From Stropharia rugosoannulata (Eukaryota > Basidiomycota > Agaricomycetes > Agaricales > Strophariaceae), in assembly GCA_028532985.1 (NCBI GenBank), contig JANCIK010000011.1, positions 1,922,001-1,986,000 of the forward strand: DNA of 64,000 nt, given 5' to 3'. The translations under genes were made by a program, and so were the position numbers. Below, piece by piece: positions 7,701-34,010 of the stretch; positions within the stretch are counted from its first letter, which is position 1; each line of letters starts with the position of its first letter. The notes beneath the pieces are model-generated. The model was given only the letters and a program-made list of their open reading frames with translations, was not told the DNA's origin and ran no database searches.

Positions 7701-7957
7701 TGAGCCAAGTGTGATTTCAGCTTGTTCTGAACATGACTGTGGATGTAAACAGCAGCAGCAGTCGACTTGCTTGTCCATGCGTCCTGTGCCTCGATCTCAG
7801 CCATAGACGGCATAAGAGAGAGCAGAGGATGCTTGCATTCACCTGTAACCAGACGCCATAGCTCCTGAGAGCGTAACCATGCTTTGATGTTGCAAGACCA
7901 GAGTTGATAGTTGGCAGTGCTCAGTTTGTCAAACTGAGGTGTTGCGAAGAAACTCAT
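4753..7957 (-). pseudogene. Copia gag-pol of unit 1 (gag to RT), hybrid of resident and amplified sequence
   Basis: The reading starts at ATG 7957 with the short Gag. It continues through protease (DTGATSHM), the integrase HHCC finger and DDE core, and the Ser/Pro-rich linker into reverse transcriptase. Unlike units 2-7 it retains RT motif A (VDISSAF), so the 181-nt deletion is absent. It is broken by a one-base shortening of a G run near 7131, an in-frame TAG at 5484-5486 and the gag-only insertion at 4752. From about 5660 leftward the sequence diverges from units 2-7, while rightward it is almost identical to them. The crossover between resident and amplified DNA therefore lies near 5.66 kb. 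Confidence 0.88.
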
Positions 7958-8348
7958 GATTGCAGGTGAAGCGAAGTGGTGAACGACGTGAAGTGGTATG
8001 AGGTGGTAGCTGAGAATGGCGCAAACGATGTGGCAAAGTTGCGAGGCGAGCTGGGCTGAAATGCACGAGCAGTGGGCAGAACACTTGCAGTATCACAATT
8101 AGGCCGAGTTGAGCACTTGCAGTAAAAAATGTCGATTGCACGAGCAGCACTGAACCGATTGACACGAGACTGTGCAAGAGGGTGGTTCGAAGATGCGGAA
8201 CGTGTGTGATCGAGTTGTGCGAACGACAGTGACGATGTGCTAGTGCAGTGAGCAAAACTGTTTGAGAGTGTCAATTGGACGGAGTTGAGCACTCTGGTGA
8301 AGAACAGTGTATTGCGAGTGAACGGCGAATCGTGATGACCTGTGAAGG
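7954..8348 (-). other. Gag-proximal leader of unit 1 with open leader frame
   Basis: This is the 391 bp between gag and the first rearrangement breakpoint. A frame of 112 codons (7954-8292) is open and its TGA overlaps the gag ATG as ATGA. The same frame is open in unit 0, units 2 and 4-7 and the plus-strand copy at 43593-43802, but is shifted by a one-base deletion in unit 3. The product is Ser/Thr/Pro-rich with no recognisable domain. The leader is pyrimidine-rich on this strand, so lack of stops may be compositional. Confidence 0.5.
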
Positions 8349-8552
8349 TGTTAGATTACATAGGATTGGACTGACCATCAGCAGTAGATTAGATATCGTG
8401 TACTATATTTAGTACACTCCATATATAGTTAATCTCGCTTATGGTAGTATATAAGGCATGTACTAGTGTAGATGCCTCTCAATCTCTTACCACCACCATC
8501 TCTGTGTGAGTTAGGTTCGCTCTCTGCGCCTGTAAGCAGTCTGCTTTCAACA
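8349..8552 (+). repeat. Copia LTR, inverted copy (former 5' LTR)
   Basis: 204 bp, TGTTAGATTACATAGG...CTTTCAACA. It contains a TATA-like GTATATAAGG at about 8447-8456, a plausible promoter firing rightward into the inverted leader. It is distinguished from the minus-oriented LTR by GATATCGTG (against GATATTGCG) and CCTCTCAATC (against CCTCTTAATC). Confidence 0.9.
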
Positions 8553-8886
8553 GGTTATGAGCCCTGCGCTCTGAGCATCCTACTCATCACTTCTCTACTG
8601 TCCTTTCTCCACTGAGTGGCTTGGTACTTAACCTAACACTCAACATCGTTCATTTTGCCTCGTTTTTTCGTGAGCATGACTGCCACGTCACGACCGTCGT
8701 TCTGGTACCACCTGCATTCCACCAGCTTGCACGGTTATCGAGCAATCCGCTTCTTTTGGTTTTAGGTCAATAGCACTCTCTTGGTGTTCACCAGAGACTT
8801 TGCTCCCCGGGCTCTCCTGATCGTCGAAACACGTGGTTCTTTCGAGGACCTCATCGTTACACATGCCTCTCGTCACTTGCCCCTTC
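8553..8886 (+). other. Inverted 5' leader segment with primer-binding site
   Basis: It begins with the half-tRNA primer-binding site GGTTATGAGCCCTGCGCTC and continues through the first 334 nt of the leader in the orientation opposite to gag. It ends at the duplicated target CCTTC (8882-8886). Transcripts of the array units starting in the LTR at 8887-9090 would carry this segment as antisense. Confidence 0.85.
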
Positions 8887-9090
8887 TGTTGAAAGCAGAC
8901 TGCTTACAGGCGCAGAGAGCGAACCTAACTCACACAGAGATGGTGGTGGTAAGAGATTAAGAGGCATCTACACTAGTACATGCCTTATATACTACCATAA
9001 GCGAGATTAACTATATATGGAGTGTACTAAATATAGTACGCAATATCTAATCTACTGCTGATGGTCAGTCCAATCCTATGTAATCTAACA
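8887..9090 (-). repeat. Copia 3' LTR of unit 2
   Basis: 204 bp in the orientation of the array, adjoining the polypurine tract at 9091. Together with 8349-8552 it forms a near-perfect 204-bp inverted repeat separated by a 334-bp loop. Confidence 0.9.
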
Positions 9091-9132
9091 CTCCCCCGTG
9101 ACCAAGGCAGTCTCTATACTACAGTATATACA

Positions 9133-12100
9133 CTATGGTTGAACTCCCATGTGAGAGCGACAGTAATCTACTTTCGCTGCTGAGAGCGGTTTGGTAAGAA
9201 TGTCAGCCACCTGTTGTGTTGTGGGTATAAACGAAGGTGTAATGACTCTGTTCTGTACAGCGTCGTGTAGCCAGTAAAAGCGAAGGTCAAGGTGCTTCAT
9301 ACGTCCGTGGTGCTCTGGGTTCTTCGATACACTGATAGCAGACTGATTGTCAATGTGCAGTGTGGAGGGAACCGGAATCATGAAGCCAAACTCGCGCAGA
9401 ATGTTGCGCATCCAGGAGATCTCCTTGCCAGCCTCAACAGCAGCAACAAACTCAGCTTCAGTGGTGGAAAGCGTCACAATGCTCTGCAACTTGCTAGACC
9501 AGCTAATTGCACCACCAGCCATGAGAACGACGTATCCACCTGTAGAGCGTCCAGTGTCCTTGCAGTTGCCGTGTGCAGCATCACAGTAAGTTGAGAACAG
9601 ATCTGTACCAAGTGAACCAGAGTAAACCAACTTGTACTCAAGTGTTCCTTTCAGATACTTGAACAAGTGCTTGACTGCTGTCCAATGCTGTGGTCCAGGA
9701 TTGCTGTTAAAGCATGTGAGATAGGACACAGTGTGTGCAATGTCAGGACGTGTCATTGTGGCGAGATACTGAAGGGAACCAATGGCGCTGAGGTAGGGAA
9801 CATTTCACATGAACTCAATATCGTCAGAACTGCTTGGTGCCATTGCATGAGTGAGGACAGTGCCAGCTGACATGGGAGTGGTGACAGGAATTGCATCTTG
9901 CATACTGTAACGTTCAAGCATGTCCAGAATGAACTGGCGCTGGTGAAGCGAAATCTTGCATTTGCTGCAATCCCTGGTAATGCCAACACCTAGTAGAAAC
10001 TCTGTCGCACCGAGATCCCTCCATTTGAAGCGTGCACTGAGTTGCTTCACAGCACGGTCAATGGATGAAGTTGATTTGGATGCAAACGTGATGTCGTCAA
10101 TGTAGATGGGCACGAAAATGCGAACTGTGCCATCTGAGTAGATGTACACTGACCTGTCTGCTTCCACACGCTTGAAACCCATATCAGTGAGAACAGAGTG
10201 TAACTTGGTGTTCCACTGCCTAGCTGATTGCTTGAGACCGTAAAGTGACTTGCGCAGCTTGCAGACCTTGTTTGGTGCACCTTCAGACTGTAGCCCTTTG
10301 CGACGATACGAGCCTTATAGCGCTCCACAGTGCCATCTGCATGACGCTTGACCTTGAAGACCCAATCAGAACCAATAGCCTTTGCACCAGGTGGCAAGTC
10401 AACGATTTCCCAAGTGTTGTTCTGCAGCAGTGTGTTGTACTCTGCATTTGCTGCATCACGCCATCTGTCTGTGTTGTCGCCCTTGAGTGCCTGCTTGTAG
10501 TTCTTGGGATCCGACACAGTAGCAGCACCAGCAAACTGAACCTCTTCCAAGCCTTCATCAACAGTGTAACTGTCGAGTTCGTCATTATCGAGGTCATCTG
10601 TCTCAGAAGGTGGCGTGACGGCGGTAGGTAGAGGTACAGCAGCAGGTTTGACTTTCCACCATTCACCAGGAGGTTGAGATTCACGTGTAGTGCGTCTCAG
10701 AGGCTCAGCAACGACTTTGGGTTCCACAGGAATGGGAGGTGCAGCACTACGAGGCAGTTTGGGCACGTTTGCAGCAGAATGCTGATCTCGTCGAGTTGAG
10801 CATGTTGGTGTTTTCGACGATTGCGGAATGTGATGCGATGACTCCAACTTGGGTGTGGTACTGTCAGACTCGTCTTTCGACGCCCTATCCAATGGTACTT
10901 GACTCGACTTGCTGGGACCAGCGGTTGGACCGGAATGCACATACGATTTCCCAGAATGCGAATTGGGCAGAGTTGAGCACTTTGGTAAACTCGACGATTT
11001 TGCACCAGTGGTTGGTGTCTGCCAGTTGGGAGTAGGTGCATCGTGTTCGTCGTCAGATGACGAGTCAGATGGTGCTGGTCCCACCAAAGGAGGTGCAGTT
11101 GGTGTGTCCGAGTCATCAGTGTCCAAGTCAGGCAAATAGGCAGCAGTTGAATCCCCCCCAGAATCTGGCACATCTGAGAAGTGTGAAGACGTGCCCTTTG
11201 GAAACAGGTTGATTGGTGAAGTCACCTTCAAACCAGGGAAACTGTGTTCGTCAAAGATAGCACGTTCTGAGATCACATACTTCTTAGTGGACGGATTGTA
11301 GAACTGCCAGCCTTTGTAGCCTGTAGGATAACCGACAAAATGCACTTCTCAACGTGTGGTTGAAGTGACTTGCGTTTGTCTCTCTGCACAAAGACGTACG
11401 CAGCACAACCAAAAACACGGAGATGGCTCATATCGGGTTTCTTGCCATGCCATGCAGTGTAGGGCACAGAGTCAGTCAGAGACGACCTGTTCCACACATG
11501 AATGTAAGCAAACACTGCAAGTCGCCAAAACGAGAGTGGGAGCTTTGCCTCTACCAGCATTGCAGTGACGTGCTCAGCAATAGTGCGATTGGCACATTCA
11601 GCTACACCATTCTGCTGAGGCCGATTGCATGTGCTGTGGCGCCTGTGAATGCCGCATTGCTCCATAAACCGTATGAACTCGTTTGACATGTATTCACCAG
11701 CCTTGTCATCCTGCATTGCCTTGATTTTTGCATTCAGCTGGTTCTCTGCATATGCCTTGTACACCTTAAATGCATCAAATGCATCCGACTTGCGCTTCAG
11801 GAACATGACAGCATGCAGGTGAGTGCAGTCATCAATGAATGTGATCCAGTAGCGATGTCCCTCAGGTGTAGGCACTGAGAGCGGACCATGCAAGTCAGAA
11901 TGCACCAATTCCAGCGGTTTGGTTGATTTGCGAGTTGAGCTCGGAAATGTGCCAGACATCATCTTGCCAGCCAAGCATGGTTCGCAAATCGGATCTGGTT
12001 GCTCTTTCGATGTTACGAGCATGCCAGTGACCAGACCCTTGGAGAGCAGCTTGTTGATGTGTGCATGGCTGTGATGTCCGCAACGACGATGCCAGAGCTC

Positions 12101-12936
12101 TGCATTGAGGGTACAGTGGACGACGATGAAGCAGAGCATGCAGATTCGCAAATGGGACGAGTGAGACCATCCAGAATAGCAGAGTGCGATGCATTGATGG
12201 TTGCAGTGAAGATGGTCTTGCCAGAGTGGTTGAAGTACATCTTCTTTGCATCGATCTCAATCAAGATGCCAGAGCGCTTGGTGAGGTACAGGCATGCAAG
12301 CAGATTGTTGTGTAACTTGGGGACATGCAGAACATGTTTGATGACTACAGCGTCCGCTTTCTTGCCATTGATGACTGGATGGAACACCACATTGCCAACA
12401 CCCTCAGAGTAGACGATGGAATCATCTGCAAGACGAATTGGGACACAGTGGGGCTTGTACTCCACAATCCAGTCTTGATGAGGCGTCATGTGGCTAGTTG
12501 CACCTGTATCTGCGAGCCAGTCGAAATCGTTGCCTTGTGCGTCACCCGTAGCAAGTGCAGATGCAAAACCTGCATACTCGACGATTTGCGACGTCTCCTC
12601 TGCTGGGGGCGAAGCAGAGTGTGCCATTTGACCAACAGCTGCCAGAGTCGACCACATGCTAACTGGGTCATGCAGAATGTGAGCCAAGTGTGATTTCAGC
12701 TTGTTCTGAACATGACTGTGGATGTAAACAGCAGCAGCAGTCGACTTGCTTGTCCATGCGTCCTGTGCCTCGATCTCAGCCATAGACGGCATAAGAGAGA
12801 GCAGAGGATGCTTGCATTCACCTGTAACCAGACGCCATAGCTCCTGAGAGCGTAACCATGCTTTGATGTTGCAAGACCAGAGTTGATAGTTGGCAGTGCT
12901 CAGTTTGTCAAACTGAGGTGTTGCGAAGAAACTCAT
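9133..12936 (-). pseudogene. Copia gag-pol, unit 2
   Basis: Domain order is short Gag, protease, integrase, RT, RNase H. RT carries the 181-nt deletion common to all array units (junction at 10285/10286), which removes motif A with its catalytic aspartate and shifts the frame. A TGA sits at the EFM-VPYL site (about 9804). Private damage is a one-base loss in an A run near 11340, in integrase. The three-base-G form near 12110 is shared with units 1 and 3. RNase H (9133-9756) is open and keeps its acidic residues, ending DYCRSHMGVQP. Confidence 0.88.
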
Positions 12937-13322
12937 GATTGCAGGTGAAGCGAAGTGGTGAACGACGTGAAGTGGTATGAGGTGGTAGCTGAGAATGGCG
13001 CAAACGATGTGGCAAAGTTGCGAGGCGAGCTGGGCTGAAATGCACGAGCAGTGGGCAGAACACTTGCAGTATCACAATTAGGCCGAGTTGAGCACTTGCA
13101 GTAAAAAATGTCGATTGCACGAGCAGCACTGAACCGATTGACACGAGACTGTGCAAGAGGGTGGTTCGAAGATGCGGAACGTGTGTGATCGAGTTGTGCG
13201 AACGACAGTGACGATGTGCTAGTGCAGTGAGCAAAACTGTTTGAGAGTGTCAATTGGACGGAGTTGAGCACTCTGGTGAAGAACAGTGTATTGCGAGTGA
13301 ACGGCGAATCGTGATGACCTGT

Positions 13323-14067
13323 GAAGGTGTTAGATTACATAGGATTGGACTGACCATCAGCAGTAGATTAGATATCGTGTACTATATTTAGTACACTCCA
13401 TATATAGTTAATCTCGCTTATGGTAGTATATAAGGCATGTACTAGTGTAGATGCCTCTCAATCTCTTACCACCACCATCTCTGTGTGAGTTAGGTTCGCT
13501 CTCTGCGCCTGTAAGCAGTCTGCTTTCAACAGGTTATGAGCCCTGCGCTCTGAGCATCCTACTCATCACTTCTCTACTGTCCTTTCTCCACTGAGTGGCT
13601 TGGTACTTAACCTAACACTCAACATCGTTCATTTTGCCTCGTTTTTTCGTGAGCATGACTGCCACGTCACGACCGTCGTTCTGGTACCACCTGCATTCCA
13701 CCAGCTTGCACGGTTATCGAGCAATCCGCTTCTTTTGGTTTTAGGTCAATAGCACTCTCTTGGTGTTCACCAGAGACTTTGCTCCCGGCTCTCCTGATCG
13801 TCGAAACACGTGGTTCTTTCGAGGACCTCATCGTTACACATGCCTCTTGTCACTTGCCCCTTCTGTTGAAAGCAGACTGCTTACAGGCGCAGAGAGCGAA
13901 CCTAACTCACACAGAGATGGTGGTGGTAAGAGATTAAGAGGCATCTACACTAGTACATGCCTTATATACTACCATAAGCGAGATTAACTATATATGGAGT
14001 GTACTAAATATAGTACGCAATATCTAATCTACTGCTGATGGTCAGTCCAATCCTATGTAATCTAACA
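13323..14067. repeat. Self-integration junction 2
   Basis: GAAGG at 13323-13327, plus LTR 13328-13531, inverted leader 13532-13863 ending CCTTC, minus LTR 13864-14067. It matches junction 1 except for a two-base contraction in the CCCCGGG run near 13785 and a C-to-T next to the target (CTCTTGTCAC). Confidence 0.88.
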
Positions 14068-14109
14068 CTCCCCCGTGACCAAGGCAGTCTCTATACTACA
14101 GTATATACA

Positions 14110-17100
14110 CTATGGTTGAACTCCCATGTGAGAGCGACAGTAATCTACTTTCGCTGCTGAGAGCGGTTTGGTAAGAATGTCAGCCACCTGTTGTGTTGTG
14201 GGTATAAACGAAGGTGTAATGACTCTGTTCTGTACAGCGTCGTGTAGCCAGTAAAAGCGAAGGTCAAGGTGCTTCATACGTCCGTGGTGCTCTGGGTTCT
14301 TCGATACACTGATAGCAGACTGATTGTCAATGTGCAGTGTGGAGGAACCGGAATCATGAAGCCAAACTCGCGCAGAATGTTGCGCATCCAGGAGATCTCC
14401 TTGCCAGCCTCAACAGCAGCAACAAACTCAGCTTCAGTGGTGGAAAGCGTCACAATGCTCTGCAACTTGCTAGACCAGCTAATTGCACCACCAGCCATGA
14501 GAACGACGTATCCACCTGTAGAGCGTCCAGTGTCCTTGCAGTTGCCGTGTGCAGCATCACAGTAAGTTGAGAACAGATCTGTACCAAGTGAACCAGAGTA
14601 AACCAACTTGTACTCAAGTGTTCCTTTCAGATACTTGAACAAGTGCTTGACTGCTGTCCAATGCTGTGGTCCAGGATTGCTGTTAAAGCATGTGAGATAG
14701 GACACAGTGTGTGCAATGTCAGGACGTGTCATTGTGGCGAGATACTGAAGGGAACCAATGGCGCTGAGGTAGGGAACATTTCACATGAACTCAATATCGT
14801 CAGAACTGCTTGGTGCCATTGCATGAGTGAGGACAGTGCCAGCTGACATGGGAGTGGTGACAGGAATTGCATCTTGCATACTGTAACGTTCAAGCATGTC
14901 CAGAATGAACTGGCGCTGGTGAAGCGAAATCTTGCATTTGCTGCAATCCCTGGTAATGCCAACACCTAGTAGAAACTCTGTCGCACCGAGATCCCTCCAT
15001 TTGAAGCGTGCACTGAGTTGCTTCACAGCACGGTCAATGGATGAAGTTGATTTGGATGCAAACGTGATGTCGTCAATGTAGATGGGCACGAAAATGCGAA
15101 CTGTGCCATCTGAGTAGATGTACACTGACCTGTCTGCTTCCACACGCTTGAAACCCATATCAGTGAGAACAGAGTGTAACTTGGTGTTCCACTGCCTAGC
15201 TGATTGCTTGAGACCGTAAAGTGACTTGCGCAGCTTGCAGACCTTGTTTGGTGCACCTTCAGACTGTAGCCCTTTGCGACGATACGAGCCTTATAGCGCT
15301 CCACAGTGCCATCTGCATGACGCTTGACCTTGAAGACCCAATCAGAACCAATAGCCTTTGCACCAGGTGGCAAGTCAACGATTTCCCAAGTGTTGTTCTG
15401 CAGCAGTGTGTTGTACTCTGCATTTGCTGCATCACGCCATCTGTCTGTGTTGTCGCCCTTGAGTGCCTGCTTGTAGTTCTTGGGATCCGACACAGTAGCA
15501 GCACCAGCAAACTGAACCTCTTCCAAGCCTTCATCAACAGTGTAACTGTCGAGTTCGTCATTATCGAGGTCATCTGTCTCAGAAGGTGGCGTAGACGGCG
15601 GTAGAGGTACAGCAGCAGGTTTGACTTTCCACCATTCACCAGGAGGTTGAGATTCACGTGTAGTGCGTCTCAGAGGCTCAGCAACGACTTTGGGTTCCAC
15701 AGGAATGGGAGGTGCAGCACTACGAGGCAGTTTGGGCACGTTTGCAGCAGAATGCTGATCTCGTCGAGTTGAGCATGTTGGTGTTTTCGACGATTGCGGA
15801 ATGTGATGCGATGACTCCAACTTGGGTGTGGTACTGTCAGACTCGTCTTTCGACGCCCTATCCAATGGTACTTGACTCGACTTGCTGGGACCAGCGGTTG
15901 GACCGGAATGCACATACGATTTCCCAGAATGCGAATTGGGCAGAGTTGAGCACTTTGGTAAACTCGACGATTTTGCACCAGTGGTTGGTGTCTGCCAGTT
16001 GGGAGTAGGTGCATCGTGTTCGTCGTCAGATGACGAGTCAGATGGTGCTGGTCCCACCAAAGGAGGTGCAGTTGGTGTGTCCGAGTCATCAGTGTCCAAG
16101 TCAGGCAAATAGGCAGCAGTTGAATCCCCCCCAGAATCTGGCACATCTGAGAAGTGTGAAGACGTGCCCTTTGAAACAGGTTGATTGGTGAAGTCACCTT
16201 CAAACCAGGGAAACTGTGTTCGTCAAAGATAGCACGTTCTGAGATCACATACTTCTTAGTGGACGGATTGTAGAACTGCCAGCCTTTGTAGCCTGTAGGA
16301 TAACCGACGAAAATGCACTTCTCAACGTGTGGTTGAAGTGACTTGCGTTTGTCTCTCTGCACAAAGACGTACGCAGCACAACCAAAAACACGGAGATGGC
16401 TCATATCGGGTTTCTTGCCATGCCATGCAGTGTAGGGCACAGAGTCAGTCAGAGACGACCTGTTCCACACATGAATGTAAGCAAACACTGCAAGTCGCCA
16501 AAACGAGAGTGGGAGCTTTGCCTCTACCAGCATTGCAGTGACGTGCTCAGCAATAGTGCGATTGGCACATTCAGCTACACCATTCTGCTGAGGCCGATTG
16601 CATGTGCTGTGGCGCCTGTGAATGCCGCATTGCTCCATAAACCGTATGAACTCGTTTGACATGTATTCACCAGCCTTGTCATCCTGCATTGCCTTGATTT
16701 TTGCATTCAGCTGGTTCTCTGCATATGCCTTGTACACCTTAAATGCATCAAATGCATCCGACTTGCGCTTCAGGAACATGACAGCATGCAGGTGAGTGCA
16801 GTCATCAATGAATGTGATCCAGTAGCGATGTCCCTCAGGTGTAGGCACTGAGAGCGGACCATGCAAGTCAGAATGCACCAATTCCAGCGGTTTGGTTGAT
16901 TTGCGAGTTGAGCTCGGAAATGTGCCAGACATCATCTTGCCAGCCAAGCATGGTTCGCAAATCGGATCTGGTTGCTCTTTCGATGTTACGAGCATGCCAG
17001 TGACCAGACCCTTGAGAGCAGCTTGTTGATGTGTGCATGGCTGTGATGTCCGCAACGACGATGCCAGAGCTCTGCATTGAGGGTACAGTGGACGACGATG

Positions 17101-17908
17101 AAGCAGAGCATGCAGATTCGCAAATGGGACGAGTGAGACCATCCAGAATAGCAGAGTGCGATGCATTGATGGTTGCAGTGAAGATGGTCTTGCCAGAGTG
17201 GTTGAAGTACATCTTCTTTGCATCGATCTCAATCAAGATGCCAGAGCGCTTGGTGAGGTACAGGCATGCAAGCAGATTGTTGTGTAACTTGGGGACATGC
17301 AGAACATGTTTGATGACTACAGCGTCCGCTTTCTTGCCATTGATGACTGGATGGAACACCACATTGCCAACACCCTCAGAGTAGACGATGGAATCATCTG
17401 CAAGACGAATTGGGACACAGTGGGGCTTGTACTCCACAATCCAGTCTTGATGAGGCGTCATGTGGCTAGTTGCACCTGTATCTGCGAGCCAGTCGAAATC
17501 GTTGCCTTGTGCGTCACCCGTAGCAAGTGCAGATGCAAAACCTGCATACTCGACGATTTGCGACGTCTCCTCTGCTGGGGGCGAAGCAGAGTGTGCCATT
17601 TGACCAACAGCTGCCAGAGTCGACCACATGCTAACTGGGTCATGCAGAATGTGAGCCAAGTGTGATTTCAGCTTGTTCTGAACATGACTGTGGATGTAAA
17701 CAGCAGCAGCAGTCGACTTGCTTGTCCATGCGTCCTGTGCCTCGATCTCAGCCATAGACGGCATAAGAGAGAGCAGAGGATGCTTGCATTCACCTGTAAC
17801 CAGACGCCATAGCTCCTGAGAGCGTAACCATGCTTTGATGTTGCAAGACCAGAGTTGATAGTTGGCAGTGCTCAGTTTGTCAAACTGAGGTGTTGCGAAG
17901 AAACTCAT
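14110..17908 (-). pseudogene. Copia gag-pol, unit 3
   Basis: Same organisation and same RT deletion (junction 15261/15262) as unit 2. Private frameshifts are one G lost near 14344 in RNase H, one G lost near 16172 in the linker, and one G lost near 17010 in the integrase finger region. All are single-base losses in short homopolymers, so they may be sequencing errors rather than mutations. Coding potential is gone in either case because of the shared deletion and TGA. Confidence 0.87.
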
Positions 17909-18293
17909 GATTGCAGGTGAAGCGAAGTGGTGAACGACGTGAAGTGGTATGAGGTGGTAGCTGAGAATGGCGCAAACGATGTGGCAAAGTTGCGAGGCGA
18001 GCTGGGCTGAAATGCACGAGCAGTGGGCAGAACACTTGCAGTATCACAATTAGGCCGAGTTGAGCACTTGCAGTAAAAAATGTCGATTGCACGAGCAGCA
18101 CTGAACCGATTGACACGAGACTGTGCAAGAGGGTGGTTCAAGATGCGGAACGTGTGTGATCGAGTTGTGCGAACGACAGTGACGATGTGCTAGTGCAGTG
18201 AGCAAAACTGTTTGAGAGTGTCAATTGGACGGAGTTGAGCACTCTGGTGAAGAACAGTGTATTGCGAGTGAACGGCGAATCGTGATGACCTGT

Positions 18294-19038
18294 GAAGGTG
18301 TTAGATTACATAGGATTGGACTGACCATCAGCAGTAGATTAGATATCGTGTACTATATTTAGTACACTCCATATATAGTTAATCTCGCTTATGGTAGTAT
18401 ATAAGGCATGTACTAGTGTAGATGCCTCTCAATCTCTTACCACCACCATCTCTGTGTGAGTTAGGTTCGCTCTCTGCGCCTGTAAGCAGTCTGCTTTCAA
18501 CAGGTTATGAGCCCTGCGCTCTGAGCATCCTACTCATCACTTCTCTACTGTCCTTTCTCCACTGAGTGGCTTGGTACTTAACCTAACACTCAACATCGTT
18601 CATTTTGCCTCGTTTTTTCGTGAGCATGACTGCCACGTCACGACCGTCGTTCTGGTACCACCTGCATTCCACCAGCTTGCACGGTTATCGAGCAATCCGC
18701 TTCTTTTGGTTTTAGGTCAATAGCACTCTCTTGGTGTTCACCAGAGACTTTGCTCCCGGCTCTCCTGATCGTCGAAACACGTGGTTCTTTCGAGGACCTC
18801 ATCGTTACACATGCCTCTTGTCACTTGCCCCTTCTGTTGAAAGCAGACTGCTTACAGGCGCAGAGAGCGAACCTAACTCACACAGAGATGGTGGTGGTAA
18901 GAGATTAAGAGGCATCTACACTAGTACATGCCTTATATACTACCATAAGCGAGATTAACTATATATGGAGTGTACTAAATATAGTACGCAATATCTAATC
19001 TACTGCTGATGGTCAGTCCAATCCTATGTAATCTAACA
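18294..19038. repeat. Self-integration junction 3
   Basis: GAAGG 18294-18298, plus LTR 18299-18502, inverted leader 18503-18834, minus LTR 18835-19038. It shares the two-base contraction of junction 2, so units 2/3 and 3/4 are sister junctions. Confidence 0.88.
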
Positions 19039-19080
19039 CTCCCCCGTGACCAAGGCAGTCTCTATACTACAGTATATACA

Positions 19081-22875: not shown

Positions 22876-23261
22876 GATTGCAGGTGAAGCGAAGTGGTGA
22901 ACGACGTGAAGTGGTATGAGGTGGTAGCTGAGAATGGCGCAAACGATGTGGCAAAGTTGCGAGGCGAGCTGGGCTGAAATGCACGAGCAGTGGGCAGAAC
23001 ACTTGCAGTATCACAATTAGGCCGAGTTGAGCACTTGCAGTAAAAAATGTCGATTGCACGAGCAGCACTGAACCGATTGACACGAGACTGTGCAAGAGGG
23101 TGGTTCGAAGATGCGGAACGTGTGTGATCGAGTTGTGCGAACGACAGTGACGATGTGCTAGTGCAGTGAGCAAAACTGTTTGAGAGTGTCAATTGGACGG
23201 AGTTGAGCACTCTGGTGAAGAACAGTGTATTGCGAGTGAACGGCGAATCGTGATGACCTGT

Positions 23262-24008
23262 GAAGGTGTTAGATTACATAGGATTGGACTGACCATCAGC
23301 AGTAGATTAGATATCGTGTACTATATTTAGTACACTCCATATATAGTTAATCTCGCTTATGGTAGTATATAAGGCATGTACTAGTGTAGATGCCTCTCAA
23401 TCTCTTACCACCACCATCTCTGTGTGAGTTAGGTTCGCTCTCTGCGCCTGTAAGCAGTCTGCTTTCAACAGGTTATGAGCCCTGCGCTCTGAGCATCCTA
23501 CTCATCACTTCTCTACTGTCCTTTCTCCACTGAGTGGCTTGGTACTTAACCTAACACTCAACATCGTTCATTTTGCCTCGTTTTTTCGTGAGCATGACTG
23601 CCACGTCACGACCGTCGTTCTGGTACCACCTGCATTCCACCAGCTTGCACGGTTATCGAGCAATCCGCTTCTTTTGGTTTTAGGTCAATAGCACTCTCTT
23701 GGTGTTCACCAGAGACTTTGCTCCCCGGGCTCTCCTGATCGTCGAAACACGTGGTTCTTTCGAGGACCTCATCGTTACACATGCCTCTTGTCACTTGCCC
23801 CTTCTGTTGAAAGCAGACTGCTTACAGGCGCAGAGAGCGAACCTAACTCACACAGAGATGGTGGTGGTAAGAGATTAAGAGGCATCTACACTAGTACATG
23901 CCTTATATACTACCATAAGCGAGATTAACTATATATGGAGTGTACTAAATATAGTACGCAATATCTAATCTACTGCTGATGGTCAGTCCAATCCTATGTA
24001 ATCTAACA
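23262..24008. repeat. Self-integration junction 4
   Basis: GAAGG 23262-23266, plus LTR 23267-23470, inverted leader 23471-23804, minus LTR 23805-24008. It retains the full CCCCGGG run of junction 1. Confidence 0.88.
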
Positions 24009-24050
24009 CTCCCCCGTGACCAAGGCAGTCTCTATACTACAGTATATACA

Positions 24051-27000
24051 CTATGGTTGAACTCCCATGTGAGAGCGACAGTAATCTACTTTCGCTGCTG
24101 AGAGCGGTTTGGTAAGAATGTCAGCCACCTGTTGTGTTGTGGGTATAAACGAAGGTGTAATGACTCTGTTCTGTACAGCGTCGTAGCCAGTAAAAGCGAA
24201 GGTCAAGGTGCTTCATACGTCCGTGGTGCTCTGGGTTCTTCGATACACTGATAGCAGACTGATTGTCAATGTGCAGTGTGGAGGGAACCGGAATCATGAA
24301 GCCAAACTCGCGCAGAATGTTGCGCATCCAGGAGATCTCCTTGCCAGCCTCAACAGCAGCAACAAACTCAGCTTCAGTGGTGGAAAGCGTCACAATGCTC
24401 TGCAACTTGCTAGACCAGCTAATTGCACCACCAGCCATGAGAACGACGTATCCACCTGTAGAGCGTCCAGTGTCCTTGCAGTTGCCGTGTGCAGCATCAC
24501 AGTAAGTTGAGAACAGATCTGTACCAAGTGAACCAGAGTAAACCAACTTGTACTCAAGTGTTCCTTTCAGATACTTGAACAAGTGCTTGACTGCTGTCCA
24601 ATGCTGTGGTCCAGGATTGCTGTTAAAGCATGTGAGATAGGACACAGTGTGTGCAATGTCAGGACGTGTCATTGTGGCGAGATACTGAAGGGAACCAATG
24701 GCGCTGAGGTAGGGAACATTTCACATGAACTCAATATCGTCAGAACTGCTTGGTGCCATTGCATGAGTGAGGACAGTGCCAGCTGACATGGGAGTGGTGA
24801 CAGGAATTGCATCTTGCATACTGTAACGTTCAAGCATGTCCAGAATGAACTGGCGCTGGTGAAGCGAAATCTTGCATTTGCTGCAATCCCTGGTAATGCC
24901 AACACCTAGTAGAAACTCTGTCGCACCGAGATCCCTCCATTTGAAGCGTGCACTGAGTTGCTTCACAGCACGGTCAATGGATGAAGTTGATTTGGATGCA
25001 AACGTGATGTCGTCAATGTAGATGGGCACGAAAATGCGAACTGTGCCATCTGAGTAGATGTACACTGACCTGTCTGCTTCCACACGCTTGAAACCCATAT
25101 CAGTGAGAACAGAGTGTAACTTGGTGTTCCACTGCCTAGCTGATTGCTTGAGACCGTAAAGTGACTTGCGCAGCTTGCAGACCTTGTTTGGTGCACCTTC
25201 AGACTGTAGCCCTTTGCGACGATACGAGCCTTATAGCGCTCCACAGTGCCATCTGCATGACGCTTGACCTTGAAGACCCAATCAGAACCAATAGCCTTTG
25301 CACCAGGTGGCAAGTCAACGATTTCCCAAGTGTTGTTCTGCAGCAGTGTGTTGTACTCTGCATTTGCTGCATCACGCCATCTGTCTGTGTTGTCGCCCTT
25401 GAGTGCCTGCTTGTAGTTCTTGGGATCCGACACAGTAGCAGCACCAGCAAACTGAACCTCTTCCAAGCCTTCATCAACAGTGTAACTGTCGAGTTCGTCA
25501 TTATCGAGGTCATCTGTCTCAGAAGGTGGCGTAGACGGCGGTAGAGGTACAGCAGCAGGTTTGACTTTCCACCATTCACCAGGAGGTTGAGATTCACGTG
25601 TAGTGCGTCTCAGAGGCTCAGCAACGACTTTGGGTTCCACAGGAATGGGAGGTGCAGCACTACGAGGCAGTTTGGGCACGTTTGCAGCAGAATGCTGATC
25701 TCGTCGAGTTGAGCATGTTGGTGTTTTCGACGATTGCGGAATGTGATGCGATGACTCCAACTTGGGTGTGGTACTGTCAGACTCGTCTTTCGACGCCCTA
25801 TCCAATGGTACTTGACTCGACTTGCTGGGACCAGCGGTTGGACCGGAATGCACATACGATTTCCCAGAATGCGAATTGGGCAGAGTTGAGCACTTTGGTA
25901 AACTCGACGATTTTGCACCAGTGGTTGGTGTCTGCCAGTTGGGAGTAGGTGCATCGTGTTCGTCGTCAGATGACGAGTCAGATGGTGCTGGTCCCACCAA
26001 AGGAGGTGCAGTTGGTGTGTCCGAGTCATCAGTGTCCAAGTCAGGCAAATAGGCAGCAGTTGAATCCCCCCCAGAATCTGGCACATCTGAGAAGTGTGAA
26101 GACGTGCCCTTTGGAAACAGGTTGATTGGTGAAGTCACCTTCAAACCAGGGAAACTGTGTTCGTCAAAGATAGCACGTTCTGAGATCACATACTTCTTAG
26201 TGGACGGATTGTAGAACTGCCAGCCTTTGTAGCCTGTAGGATAACCGACGAAAATGCACTTCTCAACGTGTGGTTGAAGTGACTTGCGTTTGTCTCTCTG
26301 CACAAAGACGTACGCAGCACAACCAAAAACACGGAGATGGCTCATATCGGGTTTCTTGCCATGCCATGCAGTGTAGGGCACAGAGTCAGTCAGAGACGAC
26401 CTGTTCCACACATGAATGTAAGCAAACACTGCAAGTCGCCAAAACGAGAGTGGGAGCTTTGCCTCTACCAGCATTGCAGTGACGTGCTCAGCAATAGTGC
26501 GATTGGCACATTCAGCTACACCATTCTGCTGAGGCCGATTGCATGTGCTGTGGCGCCTGTGAATGCCGCATTGCTCCATAAACCGTATGAACTCGTTTGA
26601 CATGTATTCACCAGCCTTGTCATCCTGCATTGCCTTGATTTTTGCATTCAGCTGGTTCTCTGCATATGCCTTGTACACCTTAAATGCATCAAATGCATCC
26701 GACTTGCGCTTCAGGAACATGACAGCATGCAGGTGAGTGCAGTCATCAATGAATGTGATCCAGTAGCGATGTCCCTCAGGTGTAGGCACTGAGAGCGGAC
26801 CATGCAAGTCAGAATGCACCAATTCCAGCGGTTTGGTTGATTTGCGAGTTGAGCTCGGAAATGTGCCAGACATCATCTTGCCAGCCAAGCATGGTTCGCA
26901 AATCGGATCTGGTTGCTCTTTCGATGTTACGAGCATGCCAGTGACCAGACCCTTGGAGAGCAGCTTGTTGATGTGTGCATGGCTGTGATGTCCGCAACGA

Positions 27001-27851
27001 CGATGCCAGAGCTCTGCATTGAGGGGTACAGTGGACGACGATGAAGCAGAGCATGCAGATTCGCAAATGGGACGAGTGAGACCATCCAGAATAGCAGAGT
27101 GCGATGCATTGATGGTTGCAGTGAAGATGGTCTTGCCAGAGTGGTTGAAGTACATCTTCTTTGCATCGATCTCAATCAAGATGCCAGAGCGCTTGGTGAG
27201 GTACAGGCATGCAAGCAGATTGTTGTGTAACTTGGGGACATGCAGAACATGTTTGATGACTACAGCGTCCGCTTTCTTGCCATTGATGACTGGATGGAAC
27301 ACCACATTGCCAACACCCTCAGAGTAGACGATGGAATCATCTGCAAGACGAATTGGGACACAGTGGGGCTTGTACTCCACAATCCAGTCTTGATGAGGCG
27401 TCATGTGGCTAGTTGCACCTGTATCTGCGAGCCAGTCGAAATCGTTGCCTTGTGCGTCACCCGTAGCAAGTGCAGATGCAAAACCTGCATACTCGACGAT
27501 TTGCGACGTCTCCTCTGCTGGGGGCGAAGCAGAGTGTGCCATTTGACCAACAGCTGCCAGAGTCGACCACATGCTAACTGGGTCATGCAGAATGTGAGCC
27601 AAGTGTGATTTCAGCTTGTTCTGAACATGACTGTGGATGTAAACAGCAGCAGCAGTCGACTTGCTTGTCCATGCGTCCTGTGCCTCGATCTCAGCCATAG
27701 ACGGCATAAGAGAGAGCAGAGGATGCTTGCATTCACCTGTAACCAGACGCCATAGCTCCTGAGAGCATAACCATGCTTTGATGTTGCAAGACCAGAGTTG
27801 ATAGTTGGCAGTGCTCAGTTTGTCAAACTGAGGTGTTGCAAAGAAACTCAT
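24051..27851 (-). pseudogene. Copia gag-pol, unit 5 (longest array frame, 962 codons)
   Basis: This is the reference copy for the array. Gag occupies about residues 1-130 with no zinc knuckle. Protease follows with DTG at 143-145. The integrase zinc finger is WHRRCGHHSHAH...CEPC at about 282-321, and the integrase core triad is D348, D411, E447 with the expected 35-residue spacing. A Ser/Pro/Asp-rich linker follows, then the N-terminal RT (WEIVDLPPGAKAIGSDW). At 25201/25202 the 181-nt deletion removes motif A and shifts the frame; the last 80 or so residues of the open frame (24963-27851) are out-of-frame translation. RT resumes in another frame (24721-25098) with YIDD, then TGA, then RNase H. 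A two-base loss near 24183 breaks RNase H before its end. Integrase looks intact, RT cannot be. Confidence 0.9.
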
Positions 27852-28237
27852 GATTGCAGGTGAAGCGAAGTGGTGAACGACGTGAAGTGGTATGAGGTGG
27901 TAGCTGAGAATGGCGCAAACGATGTGGCAAAGTTGCGAGGCGAGCTGGGCTGAAATGCACGAGCAGTGGGCAGAACACTTGCAGTATCACAATTAGGCCG
28001 AGTTGAGCACTTGCAGTAAAAAACGTCGATTGCACGAGCAGCACTGAACCGATTGACACGAGACTGTGCAAGAGGGTGGTTCGAAGATGCGGAACGTGTG
28101 TGATCGAGTTGTGCGAACGACAGTGACAATGTGCTAGTGCAGTGAGCAAAACTGTTTGAGAGTGTCAATTGGACGGAGTTGAGCACTCTGGTGAAGAACA
28201 GTGTATTGCGAGTGAACGGCGAATCGTGATGACCTGT

Positions 28238-28984
28238 GAAGGTGTTAGATTACATAGGATTGGACTGACCATCAGCAGTAGATTAGATATCGTGTACTAT
28301 ATTTAGTACACTCCATATATAGTTAATCTCGCTTATGGTAGTATATAAGGCATGTACTAGTGTAGATGCCTCTCAATCTCTTACCACCACCATCTCTGTG
28401 TGAGTTAGGTTCGCTCTCTGCGCCTGTAAGCAGTCTGCTTTCAACAGGTTATGAGCCCTGCGCTCTGAGCATCCTACTCATCACTTCTCTACTGTCCTTT
28501 CTCCACTGAGTGGCTTGGTACTTAACCTAACACTCAACATCGGTCATTTTGCCTCGTTTTTTCGTGAGCATGACTGCCACGTCACGACCGTCGTTCTGGT
28601 ACCACCTGCATTCCACCAGCTTGCACGGTTATCGAGCAATCCGCTTCTTTTGGTTTTAGGTCAATAGCACTCTCTTGGTGTTCACCAGAGACTTTGCTCC
28701 CCGGGCTCTCCTGATCGTCGAAACACGTGGTTCTTTCGAGGACCTCATCGTTACACATGCCTCTCGTCACTTGCCCCTTCTGTTGAAAGCAGACTGCTTA
28801 CAGGCGCAGAGAGCGAACCTAACTCACACAGAGATGGTGGTGGTAAGAGATTAAGAGGCATCTACACTAGTACATGCCTTATATACTACCATAAGCGAGA
28901 TTAACTATATATGGAGTGTACTAAATATAGTACGCAATATCTAATCTACTGCTGATGGTCAGTCCAATCCTATGTAATCTAACA
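28238..28984. repeat. Self-integration junction 5
   Basis: GAAGG 28238-28242, plus LTR 28243-28446, inverted leader 28447-28780, minus LTR 28781-28984. It has a private T-to-G (CATCGGTCATT near 28543). Sequences on its left (unit 5 leader) carry the variants shared by units 5-7. Confidence 0.88.
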
Positions 28985-29026
28985 CTCCCCCGTGACCAAG
29001 GCAGTCTCTATACTACAGTATATACA

Positions 29027-32000
29027 CTATGGTTGAACTCCCATGTGAGAGCGACAGTAATCTACTTTCGCTGCTGAGAGCGGTTTGGTAAGAATGTCAG
29101 CCACCTGTTGTGTTGTGGGTATAAACGAAGGTGTAATGACTCTGTTCTGTACAGCGTCGTGTAGCCAGTAAAAGCGAAGGTCAAGGTGCTTCATACGTCC
29201 GTGGTGCTCTGGGTTCTTCGATACACTGATAGCAGACTGATTGTCAATGTGCAGTGTGGAGGGAACCGGAATCATGAAGCCAAACTCGCGCAGAATGTTG
29301 CGCATCCAGGAGATCTCCTTGCCAGCCTCAACAGCAGCAACAAACTCAGCTTCAGTGGTGGAAAGCGTCACAATGCTCTGCAACTTGCTAGACCAGCTAA
29401 TTGCACCACCAGCCATGAGAACGACGTATCCACCTGTAGAGCGTCCAGTGTCCTTGCAGTTGCCGTGTGCAGCATCACAGTAAGTTGAGAACAGATCTGT
29501 ACCAAGTGAACCAGAGTAAACCAACTTGTACTCAAGTGTTCCTTTCAGATACTTGAACAAGTGCTTGACTGCTGTCCAATGCTGTGGTCCAGGATTGCTG
29601 TTAAAGCATGTGAGATAGGACACAGTGTGTGCAATGTCAGGACGTGTCATTGTGGCGAGATACTGAAGGGAACCAATGGCGCTGAGGTAGGGAACATTTC
29701 ACATGAACTCAATATCGTCAGAACTGCTTGGTGCCATTGCATGAGTGAGGACAGTGCCAGCTGACATGGGAGTGGTGACAGGAATTGCATCTTGCATACT
29801 GTAACGTTCAAGCATGTCCAGAATGAACTGGCGCTGGTGAAGCGAAATCTTGCATTTGCTGCAATCCCTGGTAATGCCAACACCTAGTAGAAACTCTGTC
29901 GCACCGAGATCCCTCCATTTGAAGCGTGCACTGAGTTGCTTCACAGCACGGTCAATGGATGAAGTTGATTTGGATGCAAACGTGATGTCGTCAATGTAGA
30001 TGGGCACGAAAATGCGAACTGTGCCATCTGAGTAGATGTACACTGACCTGTCTGCTTCCACACGCTTGAAACCCATATCAGTGAGAACAGAGTGTAACTT
30101 GGTGTTCCACTGCCTAGCTGATTGCTTGAGACCGTAAAGTGACTTGCGCAGCTTGCAGACCTTGTTTGGTGCACCTTCAGACTGTAGCCCTTTGCGACGA
30201 TACGAGCCTTATAGCGCTCCACAGTGCCATCTGCATGACGCTTGACCTTGAAGACCCAATCAGAACCAATAGCCTTTGCACCAGGTGGCAAGTCAACGAT
30301 TTCCCAAGTGTTGTTCTGCAGCAGTGTGTTGTACTCTGCATTTGCTGCATCACGCCATCTGTCTGTGTTGTCGCCCTTGAGTGCCTGCTTGTAGTTCTTG
30401 GGATCCGACACAGTAGCAGCACCAGCAAACTGAACCTCTTCCAAGCCTTCATCAACAGTGTAACTGTCGAGTTCGTCATTATCGAGGTCATCTGTCTCAG
30501 AAGGTGGCGTAGACGGCGGTAGAGGTACAGCAGCAGGTTTGACTTTCCACCATTCACCAGGAGGTTGAGATTCACGTGTAGTGCGTCTCAGAGGCTCAGC
30601 AACGACTTTGGGTTCCACAGGAATGGGAGGTGCAGCACTACGAGGCAGTTTGGGCACGTTTGCAGCAGAATGCTGATCTCGTCGAGTTGAGCATGTTGGT
30701 GTTTTCGACGATTGCGGAATGTGATGCGATGACTCCAACTTGGGTGTGGTACTGTCAGACTCGTCTTTCGACGCCCTATCCAATGGTACTTGACTCGACT
30801 TGCTGGGACCAGCGGTTGGACCGAATGCACATACGATTTCCCAGAATGCGAATTGGGCAGAGTTGAGCACTTTGGTAAACTCGACGATTTTGCACCAGTG
30901 GTTGGTGTCTGCCAGTTGGGAGTAGGTGCATCGTGTTCGTCGTCAGATGACGAGTCAGATGGTGCTGGTCCCACCAAAGGAGGTGCAGTTGGTGTGTCCG
31001 AGTCATCAGTGTCCAAGTCAGGCAAATAGGCAGCAGTTGAATCCCCCCCAGAATCTGGCACATCTGAGAAGTGTGAAGACGTGCCCTTTGGAAACAGGTT
31101 GATTGGTGAAGTCACCTTCAAACCAGGGAAACTGTGTTCGTCAAAGATAGCACGTTCTGAGATCACATACTTCTTAGTGGACGGATTGTAGAACTGCCAG
31201 CCTTTGTAGCCTGTAGGATAACCGACGAAAATGCACTTCTCAACGTGTGGTTGAAGTGACTTGCGTTTGTCTCTCTGCACAAAGACGTACGCAGCACAAC
31301 CAAAAACACGGAGATGGCTCATATCGGGTTTCTTGCCATGCCATGCAGTGTAGGGCACAGAGTCAGTCAGAGACGACATAGGTAGCCTGTTCCACACATG
31401 AATGTAAGCAAACACTGCAAGTCGCCAAAACGAGAGTGGGAGCTTTGCCTCTACCAGCATTGCAGTGACGTGCTCAGCAATAGTGCGATTGGCACATTCA
31501 GCTACACCATTCTGCTGAGGCCGATTGCATGTGCTGTGGCGCCTGTGAATGCCGCATTGCTCCATAAACCGTATGAACTCGTTTGACATGTATTCACCAG
31601 CCTTGTCATCCTGCATTGCCTTGATTTTTGCATTCAGCTGGTTCTCTGCATATGCCTTGTACACCTTAAATGCATCAAATGCATCCGACTTGCGCTTCAG
31701 GAACATGACAGCATGCAGGTGAGTGCAGTCATCAATGAATGTGATCCAGTAGCGATGTCCCTCAGGTGTAGGCACTGAGAGCGGACCATGCAAGTCAGAA
31801 TGCACCAATTCCAGCGGTTTGGTTGATTTGCGAGTTGAGCTCGGAAATGTGCCAGACATCATCTTGCCAGCCAAGCATGGTTCGCAAATCGGATCTGGTT
31901 GCTCTTTCGATGTTACGAGCATGCCAGTGACCAGACCCTTGGAGAGCAGCTTGTTGATGTGTGCATGGCTGTGATGTCCGCAACGACGATGCCAGAGCTC

Positions 32001-32837
32001 TGCATTGAGGGGTACAGTGGACGACGATGAAGCAGAGCATGCAGATTCGCAAATGGGACGAGTGAGACCATCCAGAATAGCAGAGTGCGATGCATTGATG
32101 GTTGCAGTGAAGATGGTCTTGCCAGAGTGGTTGAAGTACATCTTCTTTGCATCGATCTCAATCAAGATGCCAGAGCGCTTGGTGAGGTACAGGCATGCAA
32201 GCAGATTGTTGTGTAACTTGGGGACATGCAGAACATGTTTGATGACTACAGCGTCCGCTTTCTTGCCATTGATGACTGGATGGAACACCACATTGCCAAC
32301 ACCCTCAGAGTAGACGATGGAATCATCTGCAAGACGAATTGGGACACAGTGGGGCTTGTACTCCACAATCCAGTCTTGATGAGGCGTCATGTGGCTAGTT
32401 GCACCTGTATCTGCGAGCCAGTCGAAATCGTTGCCTTGTGCGTCACCCGTAGCAAGTGCAGATGCAAAACCTGCATACTCGACGATTTGCGACGTCTCCT
32501 CTGCTGGGGGCGAAGCAGAGTGTGCCATTTGACCAACAGCTGCCAGAGTCGACCACATGCTAACTGGGTCATGCAGAATGTGAGCCAAGTGTGATTTCAG
32601 CTCGTTCTGAACATGACTGTGGATGTAAACAGCAGCAGCAGTCGACTTGCTTGTCCATGCGTCCTGTGCCTCGATCTCAGCCATAGACGGCATAAGAGAG
32701 AGCAGAGGACGCTTGCATTCACCTGTAACCAGACGCCATAGCTCCTGAGAGCATAACCATGCTTTGATGTTGCAAGACCAGAGTTGATAGTTGGCAGTGC
32801 TCAGTTTGTCAAACTGAGGTGTTGCAAAGAAACTCAT
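29027..32837 (-). pseudogene. Copia gag-pol, unit 6
   Basis: It is open from Gag through integrase into the linker (30588-32837, 749 codons, the last part out of frame after a G loss near 30823). It has the RT deletion at 30179/30180, the TGA and an open RNase H (29027-29650). It keeps three extra codons, LPM, before SSLTDSVPY in integrase that units 1-5 lack and the plus-strand copy at 52.1 kb has, so the LPM form is ancestral. It shares with unit 7 ECKRPLL and QNELKSH in Gag. Confidence 0.88.
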
Positions 32838-33222
32838 GATTGCAGGTGAAGCGAAGTGGTGAACGACGTGAAGTGGTATGAGGTGGTAGCTGAGAATGGC
32901 GCAAACGATGTGGCAAAGTTGCGAGGCGAGCTGGGCTGAAATGCACGAGCAGTGGGCAGAACACTTGCAGTATCACAATTAGGCCGAGTTGAGCACTTGC
33001 AGTAAAAAACGTCGATTGCACGAGCAGCACTGAACCGATTGACACGAGACTGTGCAAGAGGGTGGTTCGAAGATGCGGAACGTGTGTGATCGAGTTGTGC
33101 GAACGACAGTGACAATGTGCTAGTGCAGTGAGCAAAACTGTTTGAGAGTGTCAATTGGACGGAGTTGAGCACTCTGGTGAAGAACAGTGTATTGCGAGTG
33201 AACGCGAATCGTGATGACCTGT

Positions 33223-33968
33223 GAAGGTGTTAGATTACATAGGATTGGACTGACCATCAGCAGTAGATTAGATATCGTGTACTATATTTAGTACACTCCA
33301 TATATAGTTAATCTCGCTTATGGTAGTATATAAGGCATGTACTAGTGTAGATGCCTCTCAATCTCTTACCACCACCATCTCTGTGTGAGTTAGGTTCGCT
33401 CTCTGCGCCTGTAAGCAGTCTGCTTTCAACAGGTTATGAGCCCTGCGCTCTGAGCATCCTACTCATCACTTCTCTACTGTCCTTTCTCCACTGAGTGGCT
33501 TGGTACTTAACCTAACACTCAACATCGTTCATTTTGCCTCGTTTTTTCGTGAGCATGACTGCCACGTCACGACCGTCGTTCTGGTACCACCTGCATTCCA
33601 CCAGCTTGCACGGTTATCGAGCAATCCGCTTCTTTTGGTTTTAGGTCAATAGCACTCTCTTGGTGTTCACCAGAGACTTTGCTCCCGGGCTCTCCTGATC
33701 GTCGAAACACGTGGTTCTTTCGAGGACCTCATCGTTACACATGCCTCTCGTCACTTGCCCCTTCTGTTGAAAGCAGACTGCTTACAGGCGCAGAGAGCGA
33801 ACCTAACTCACACAGAGATGGTGGTGGTAAGAGATTAAGAGGCATCTACACTAGTACATGCCTTATATACTACCATAAGCGAGATTAACTATATATGGAG
33901 TGTACTAAATATAGTACGCAATATCTAATCTACTGCTGATGGTCAGTCCAATCCTATGTAATCTAACA
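33223..33968. repeat. Self-integration junction 6 (rightmost)
   Basis: GAAGG 33223-33227, plus LTR 33228-33431, inverted leader 33432-33764, minus LTR 33765-33968. A one-base contraction near 33685 distinguishes it. To its right unit 7 has an ordinary 5' end, so this is the last rearranged junction. Confidence 0.88.
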
Positions 33969-34010
33969 CTCCCCCGTGACCAAGGCAGTCTCTATACTAC
34001 AGTATATACA

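Follow-up and report, generated by a model that had tools for sequence, protein, structure and literature searches.

The window analysed here, a stretch of 64,000 nucleotides from the genome of the basidiomycete Stropharia rugosoannulata (C11:1922001-1986000, on one of the 20 contigs, totalling 47,968,167 bases, that were searched), carries a tandem array built from a Ty1/copia retrotransposon. BLAST with one long terminal repeat (LTR) and one unit delimited six head-to-tail units between window positions 8349 and 38202, each 4,968-4,985 bp long, and units 2-6 are 99.3-99.7% identical to unit 1. The starts of the six plus-oriented LTRs are spaced by 4979, 4971, 4968, 4976 and 4985 bp. The units (strand given as the gag-pol coding direction) and the parts of the first junction and unit, including the primer-binding site (PBS)-like sequence and reverse transcriptase (RT), are as follows, in window positions.

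8349..13327, minus, array unit 1 (BLAST)
13328..18298, minus, array unit 2, 99.7% identical to unit 1
18299..23266, minus, array unit 3, 99.6% identical to unit 1
23267..28242, minus, array unit 4, 99.7% identical to unit 1
28243..33227, minus, array unit 5, 99.5% identical to unit 1
33228..38202, minus, array unit 6, 99.3% identical to unit 1, continuing without a join into the right resident copia
8344..8348, plus, GAAGG, the 5-bp target copy at the left end of the plus LTR; also at 13323, 18294, 23262, 28238 and 33223
8349..8552, plus, complete plus LTR, its 5' end abutting GAAGG, with PBS-like GGTTATGAGCCC after it
8553..8886, plus, leader segment from the PBS to CCTTC
8882..8886, plus, CCTTC, the second target copy, at the right end of the minus LTR; present in 6/6
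8887..9090, minus, complete minus LTR, with the polypurine tract side at 9091
9091..13322, minus, remainder of the element: polypurine tract, RNase H, RT with a 182-bp deletion, integrase, gag, and leader to GAAGG

Structure of the junctions

All six junctions are composed in the same way. A whole 204-bp plus LTR stands directly after GAAGG, the PBS-like sequence and leader (together 332-334 bp) follow and terminate in CCTTC, and a whole 204-bp minus LTR comes next, succeeded by the polypurine tract in reverse complement. With slashes marking the joins, every junction reads ...CCTGTGAAGG/TGTTAG..CAACA/GGTTATGAGCCC ... GCCCCTTC/TGTTGAAAGC..TCTAACA/CTCCCCC. Beyond the minus LTR, the plus strand runs through the reverse polypurine tract, pol, gag and the reversed leader to the next GAAGG. 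In the orientation of the element, GAAGG carries its right end and CCTTC its left end, these being two faces of one 5-bp site, and the unit length is that of one whole element plus 5 bp. Exact LTR ends on a single 5-bp target in mirror orientation (GAAGG/LTR+ ... CCTTC/LTR-) were thus present in 6/6 junctions, a coincidence that, in our own judgement rather than by a shuffle control, lies far beyond chance. The first-pass annotation, made from the letters of the window, had described the junctions in this form and had placed them correctly; it had also read the joins as the work of an integrase on a copia target, and with exact LTR ends throughout they are indeed of the copia integrase type, with a 5-bp duplication.

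The element shows the hallmarks of Ty1/copia: LTRs of the form TGTT..AACA, the PBS-like sequence noted above, the polypurine tract GGGGGAG, and 5-bp target duplications, which in non-copia DNA are CATAC, CTAAG and CATCT. Integrase lies upstream of RT in one frame (reading frames were taken as they stand, none being repaired), with the domains rve at 339-439 (31.8 bits, slightly below the 32.6 cut-off), SH3_retrovirus at 497-568 and RVT_2 at 839-884. Among the 120 relatives listed for the RNase H piece, the one identified to species is Candolleomyces eurysporus, at 63%. For an RPB2 exon fragment, again among 120 listed, the earliest matches with species or genus names are agarics (Marasmius sp. 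94%, Mycena chlorophos 94%, Agrocybe pediades 95% over 92% of the query) and a further relative reaches 97%, in keeping with a mushroom-forming host. All units lack 182 bp of RT that are kept by the left resident copy (5128-5308) and by a copy at 50819-54112. The PBS-like sequence GGTTATGAGCCCTGCGCTCTGAGCATCC (8553-8580) resembles the complement of the anticodon arm of an elongator tRNA-Met, which would suit priming by a half-tRNA. RNA transcribed across 8349-9090 would, by prediction, form a hairpin whose stem is as long as the LTR (-461 kcal/mol; mean of 20 shuffles, -191), as expected of any inverted repeat, here from the facing LTR+ and LTR-; a role in RNA silencing would be hypothetical. 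Scans of the window for tRNAs and against Rfam at the gathering threshold gave no match.

Edges of the array and divergence of the LTR pair

Resident copia sequence, in the opposite orientation to the element carrying the plus LTR, continues at both edges of the array.

440..444, plus, GAAGG in the undisturbed leader of the left neighbour, within GTGAAGGGGCAAG starting at 438
816..1019, minus, LTR of the left resident chain
4752..5655, minus, left resident copia, differing by 4-6% from the units and retaining the 182 bp of RT
5656..8348, minus, partial unit on the left, with a single difference from unit 1 over ~2,690 bases
38201..38738, minus, right resident: unoccupied target (GAGTG, 38201-38205), leader and LTR (38535-38738), 97.4% identical to the unit over 38205-38738

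The undisturbed target that had been announced, one GAAGG in continuous leader, does exist, four bases from the place first given for it (444-448). The left border of unit-like sequence falls near unit position 2288, the leader at the right edge is uninterrupted, and the array is homogenised nearly to its edges. On either side, leader and pol are connected by a single LTR, forming a one-LTR chain, and partial LTR duplications lie beside the resident LTRs at 781-815 (~35 bp) and 38739-38825 (~87 bp).

Within each of the six units, LTR+ and LTR- are 98.5% identical, the alignment for unit 1 giving differences at 3 of 204 sites. Since the pair differs in all six units, amplification would have come long after integration; the LTR pair was probably single-copy for a long time beforehand, and the sequences thus suggest an old insertion and a recent amplification. 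Among units 1-3, the differences are small indels and one single-nucleotide polymorphism, at unit position 523. Alternative bases at unit positions 4246-4977 recur in units 4-6 in a graded manner, with the greatest number in unit 6, and a 9-bp insertion is common to units 5 and 6; these graded variants, like the left border, look like exchange with neighbours. Indels occur at 19 sites among the units; of the 12 that involve one base, 10 are a G and 9 affect only one unit. Because these one-base indels resemble residual assembly errors, the copy number and the small variants are provisional.

Copia clusters and sister arrays on other contigs

The LTR-start pattern, with at most two mismatches, occurs at 116 sites in the genome (control, 0). 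The 100 of these that were listed form one cluster per contig on 12 contigs (C1-C5 and C7-C13), and sites are also found on the small contigs C19 and C20. Spacing is constant on eight contigs, which thus carry eight copia arrays with eight unit lengths.

C1, 7,803 bp
C5, ~5,488 bp
C8, ~5,508 bp
C9, ~3,412 bp
C10, ~2,754 bp
C11, ~4,977 bp
C12, ~3,540 bp
C13, ~5,549 bp

The LTR-leader-LTR join was recovered at full length and at least 99% identity only at the six C11 places (among the 40 of 238 candidates scored). The other arrays are built differently. The C12 unit, LTR-leader-gag-pol..GTATC/LTR, has the form of a 5'-arm circle, and the C9 unit, LTR/CACTC..pol-LTR, that of a 3'-arm circle. The C10 unit (LTR-A/LTRb-A_b/) joins truncated elements from two families, the LTR with which each begins lying inside the other, and the C13 unit combines antisense pol with 103 bp that match none of the copia references used, a lone LTR flanked by CTAAG standing at the array edge. 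Given the two families in the C10 unit and the non-copia DNA in that of C13, neither array is an autointegration circle. The C1 unit holds three LTRs, including a mirror pair with overlapping flanks, and a family-b element lies at the right edge of the array; at C1:2233472-2249980, the mirror pair stands with a lone LTR flanked as CACAG/LTR/CCACC, and its target overlap is 75 bp rather than 5, so that the pair is not a concerted 5-bp event. In the C5 and C8 arrays, the 701 bases read from each contain the usual succession of polypurine tract, LTR and leader, here of the b family. The genome thus combines, in eight arrays on eight contigs built from two related copia families, one-LTR tandems, LTR-to-internal joins, a two-family unit and an inverted unit, and displays several likely origins of satellites at once.

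Two further loci are mirror cases of C11, via the other arm: C9:2898222-2900997 (CTCGG/CCGAG) and, at the right array edge, C12:1487968-1490931 (CTGTG/CACAG, family b). The LTRs of the C12 pair, in mirror orientation, differ at 0 of 203 positions, pointing to a recent inverted event. The reciprocal of the C12 array join (LTR end/GTATC) has no match in the genome with at most one mismatch. CACTC/LTR start, the reciprocal pattern for C9, has two matches, exact at C3:1880030 and with one mismatch at C7:1716425. At C3:1880030-1880047, a family-b LTR sits on family-a copia at the same CACTC site to which the family-a LTR of the C9 array is joined, which makes it either a site used more than once or the matching half of a hybrid element; the C9 site has in any case been joined to a left LTR end in at least one other place. 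Elsewhere on C9, GATGC adjoins both a left and a right LTR end of the same orientation (2902248 and 2849478); these lie 53 kb apart in non-copia DNA, one on each side of the cluster. The entire C9 cluster may have expanded within a single insertion, unless the GATGC match is due to chance. The pattern of one cluster per contig points to the copia clusters, that of C11 included, as possible centromeres.

Junction survey and target families

We surveyed LTR 5' ends without a preceding polypurine tract and LTR 3' ends without a following PBS in 327,782 bases including the window. The 31 left and 18 right ends recovered, which include local LTR duplications and a few cases of one junction with one changed base, have copia flanks in 24/31 and 14/18 rows, respectively. 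Programmed matching of left and right 5-mers, run on 329,035 bases (32 and 21 rows), retrieved GAAGG (C11), CCGAG (C9) and CACAG (C12, family b) in copia targets, all of them inverted, and CATAC (C5), CATCT (C4) and CTAAG (C13, around the lone LTR) in non-copia targets, all of them plain. The inverted C9 and C12 cases are further joins of an LTR to internal sequence with a 5-bp duplication, of the kind for which the first pass had proposed a search. A CAGTT match between a left flank on C9 and a right flank on C10 was set aside as chance, since the contigs differ.

The family of the target could be diagnosed, from leader or gag, for nine junctions of the LTR family. Five are self-targets and four lie in the other family, the share of family a in target sequence of this kind being 0.79 (44,903/56,955 bases); with a sample this small, there is no excess of self-targets. 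Outside the nine stand the local LTR duplication of the window, a 22-base C12 match, the boundary cases C9 CACTC and C10 LTRb, and a family-b row on C3.

Self-target junctions: C11; C9 CCGAG; C7 1678748; C10 2541854; C1 2253416
Junctions into family b: C10 array; C10 2542814; C1 2228930; C9 2846226

Origin of the array

Both leading explanations make the array a satellite that derives from a retrotransposon and lies in a copia cluster. The explanation that we favour, to which we give an even chance, starts from an insertion of one copia element into another in opposite orientation, followed by a recombination flip across the shared 5' arm and, later, by unequal exchange. In this sequence of events, copia integrase would first have cut the leader of a resident copia at GAAGG. 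Exchange between inverted repeats, the 538-bp arms of LTR plus leader, would then have turned the inserted body to the orientation of the resident, leaving LTR+, leader and LTR- between two gag-pol bodies. After long residence as a single copy, the two bodies would have mispaired, and unequal crossing-over between the 4.4-kb direct repeats made by the inversion would have produced an array that is homogenised and can expand or contract. The order of events, the inversion on 538-bp arms and the unequal crossing-over are our reconstruction.

The chief rival, which we hold at somewhat below an even chance, is captured autointegration: both ends of one cDNA would have attacked their own leader at CCTTC, and the resulting circle would have recombined into a resident element and been amplified later. 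It accounts directly for a single 5-bp target in mirror copies and for a unit that exceeds one whole element by 5 bp, and the unit, as the first-pass annotation recognised, matches in form the known inverted two-LTR autointegration circle once this is opened and repeated. All three 5-bp pairs in copia targets belong to the inverted class, and the units of C12 (whose reciprocal was not found with at most one mismatch) and C9 are shaped like the two one-LTR truncated circles. At C11, recombination would be likelier to occur in the 4.4-kb body. Circles of the inverted and truncated kinds are, moreover, described in the available passages of earlier work (PMC4751563, PMC2644782, PMC9694575). Extended to the sister arrays, this explanation would make inverted (C11), 5'-arm (C12) and 3'-arm (C9) self-integration circles, captured by homologous recombination, the source of satellites of putative centromeres, an idea that we put forward only tentatively.

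The same product is, however, expected from nested insertion and inversion. Let A denote the LTR and the part of the leader before the site, and B all that remains of the element. By this reasoning the inverted autointegration circle is [LTR+ A, LTR- B-reversed], and its recombination with a minus resident via B would yield B-reversed, GAAGG, LTR+ A CCTTC, LTR- B-reversed, GAAGG, A-reversed, LTR-. A plus element inserted at the resident GAAGG would give B-reversed, GAAGG, LTR+ A B LTR+, GAAGG, A-reversed, LTR-, and exchange between its inverted A arms would convert this nested string exactly into that of circle capture. Because both routes yield an identical string, cis and trans origins are indistinguishable from sequence alone. 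The resident copia at both edges and the uninterrupted leader on the right fit what the inversion requires, and capture needs resident edges too. Of the first-pass proposal that a dead-end circle gave rise to a 5-kb satellite, the tandem array and the circle form stand, and the circle itself is one of two routes to the same letters.

Several observations argue against capture. The LTR differences carried by all units speak against the amplification of a fresh circle, which loses its appeal because of the long single-copy phase. C10 and C13 are impossible as such circles, and the 75-bp overlap at C1 is no concerted 5-bp event. The single-copy phase and the C10 and C13 arrays also count against the first-pass idea of a dead-end circle that entered the chromosome and amplified. 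Self-targets show no excess, and the CACTC/LTR join at the copia site of C9 exists on C3 with a family-b LTR. In yeast extrachromosomal circular DNA, one of six mosaic Ty reads fits autointegration and none fits the inverted two-LTR circle, according to the passages available (PMC4751563). Arrays and junctions that must have arisen in trans, together with the lack of enrichment for self-targets, a commonplace mechanism and the extended residence as a single copy, bring nested insertion to the even chance stated above, and the sister arrays C10, C13 and C1 show nesting at work.

Nesting has its own difficulties. It predicts some plain copia-in-copia pairs with a matching target, and none was found in 329,035 bases, most copia clusters of the genome being read only in part; candidate plain pairs at C7 and C5 were rejected, their right flanks not matching the left. 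Both 5-bp pairs with a readable target family (C11 and C9) are self, and the reciprocal of the C12 join was not found with at most one mismatch. The inversion at C11 must use the 538-bp arm and not the 4.4-kb arm, and only the former outcome leaves long direct repeats for amplification. Finally, a mosaic able to separate the models has been erased by later homogenisation. Per-100-bp profiles of the left resident, the 39989-42077 copy and other copies against the unit were rejected as a discriminator of cis and trans: the copies are star-like, the others mostly ~92-97% identical to the unit, the 39989-42077 copy has apparently exchanged an ~800-bp tract with the units by gene conversion, and the original pairing leaves no trace in the homogenised array. 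The C12 family-b pair, considered as a fresh case, was also non-deciding, its A side being 99.8% identical to the array and its B side not.

Two independent opposite insertions at the same target, later joined by recombination, are very improbable. Insertion of copia into copia is frequent here, as the copia flanks of the surveyed rows attest, and the CACTC site has been joined to LTRs of two families (C9 and C3), but the same 5 bp would have to be struck twice, whereas a single event explains both ends. Least credible of all is an assembly artefact from fold-back or mis-joined long reads: the one-base indels hint at imperfect polishing and the small contig C20 repeats the C10 unit, but the six joins are base-exact at both LTR ends with a 5-bp duplication, other loci follow the same logic on different targets, and a fold-back is not expected to stop at LTR termini.

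A precise autointegration signature in a chromosome is thus no proof of autointegration, because nested insertion and inversion give the same letters, and surveys that count LTR-internal joins should allow for both. Should the circle explanation be true, a pathway regarded as a dead end (retroelement suicide) would have an inherited product and feed chromosomes. In either case, the array bears on the birth of satellites and centromere repeats, and would illustrate a way for transposon wreckage to become a satellite.

Other features of the window

A neighbouring copia copy with a family-b LTR lies in the opposite orientation at 39989-42077 (plus). It has the 182-bp RT deletion of the units within a nearly identical tract of ~800 bp, an apparent case of gene conversion. 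A copia open reading frame (ORF) of 1132 amino acids at 50748-54146 (plus) contains the RT segment deleted in the units, and no LTR was found adjoining it. At 44407-49073 (minus) lies a non-LTR retrotransposon with an RVT_1 ORF (44407-46830), an endonuclease-type ORF (47218-48318) and a cysteine-rich ORF (48315-49073) that has no Pfam match. An imperfect tandem repeat with a period of 159 and 4.5 copies occupies 63209-63938.

Comparison with known systems

Our literature search, covering mostly abstracts and passages and few subscription papers, found inverted autointegration circles nowhere described as forming a tandem array in a chromosome, and within the literature searched the inverted form of a retrotransposon-derived tandem repeat is new. 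The sources cited for inverted autointegration circles of Ty1 and retroviruses are reportedly Garfinkel 2006 and Shoemaker 1980.

The C11 unit resembles these inverted two-LTR circles, as portrayed in the passages available, in having both ends on an internal target in mirror orientation (PMC4751563, PMC2644782). Unlike the circles, which are extrachromosomal, C11 is a chromosomal array whose LTRs appear to have diverged before amplification. Tandem LTR retrotransposons of plants that share an LTR form head-to-tail arrays, which the C5 and C8 junctions resemble; unlike at C11, no inverted arm with an internal target is described for them in the sections available (PMC11899658).

The CoLT copia clusters of oomycete centromeres are usually found once per contig, a proposed criterion for centromere prediction in the parts of the paper available (PMC7082073). 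Copia clusters likewise occur once per contig here, where centromere status is putative; the hosts of CoLT are oomycetes and not fungi, and the available CoLT text does not use the word 'tandem', in contrast to the tandem arrays here (PMC7082073).

The maize repeats CRM1TR and CRM4TR are, like the C11 array, tandem repeats cut from a retrotransposon, in their case from retrotransposons enriched at centromeres. As far as the available passages go, their authors suggested nested insertions as the origin and gene conversion for the amplification, with unequal exchange and rolling-circle products not excluded (PMC3648361). The maize repeats derive from Ty3/gypsy elements, around the junction of the LTR and the untranslated region, whereas C11 derives from copia, spans the full element length and carries two LTRs inverted on a 5-bp target.

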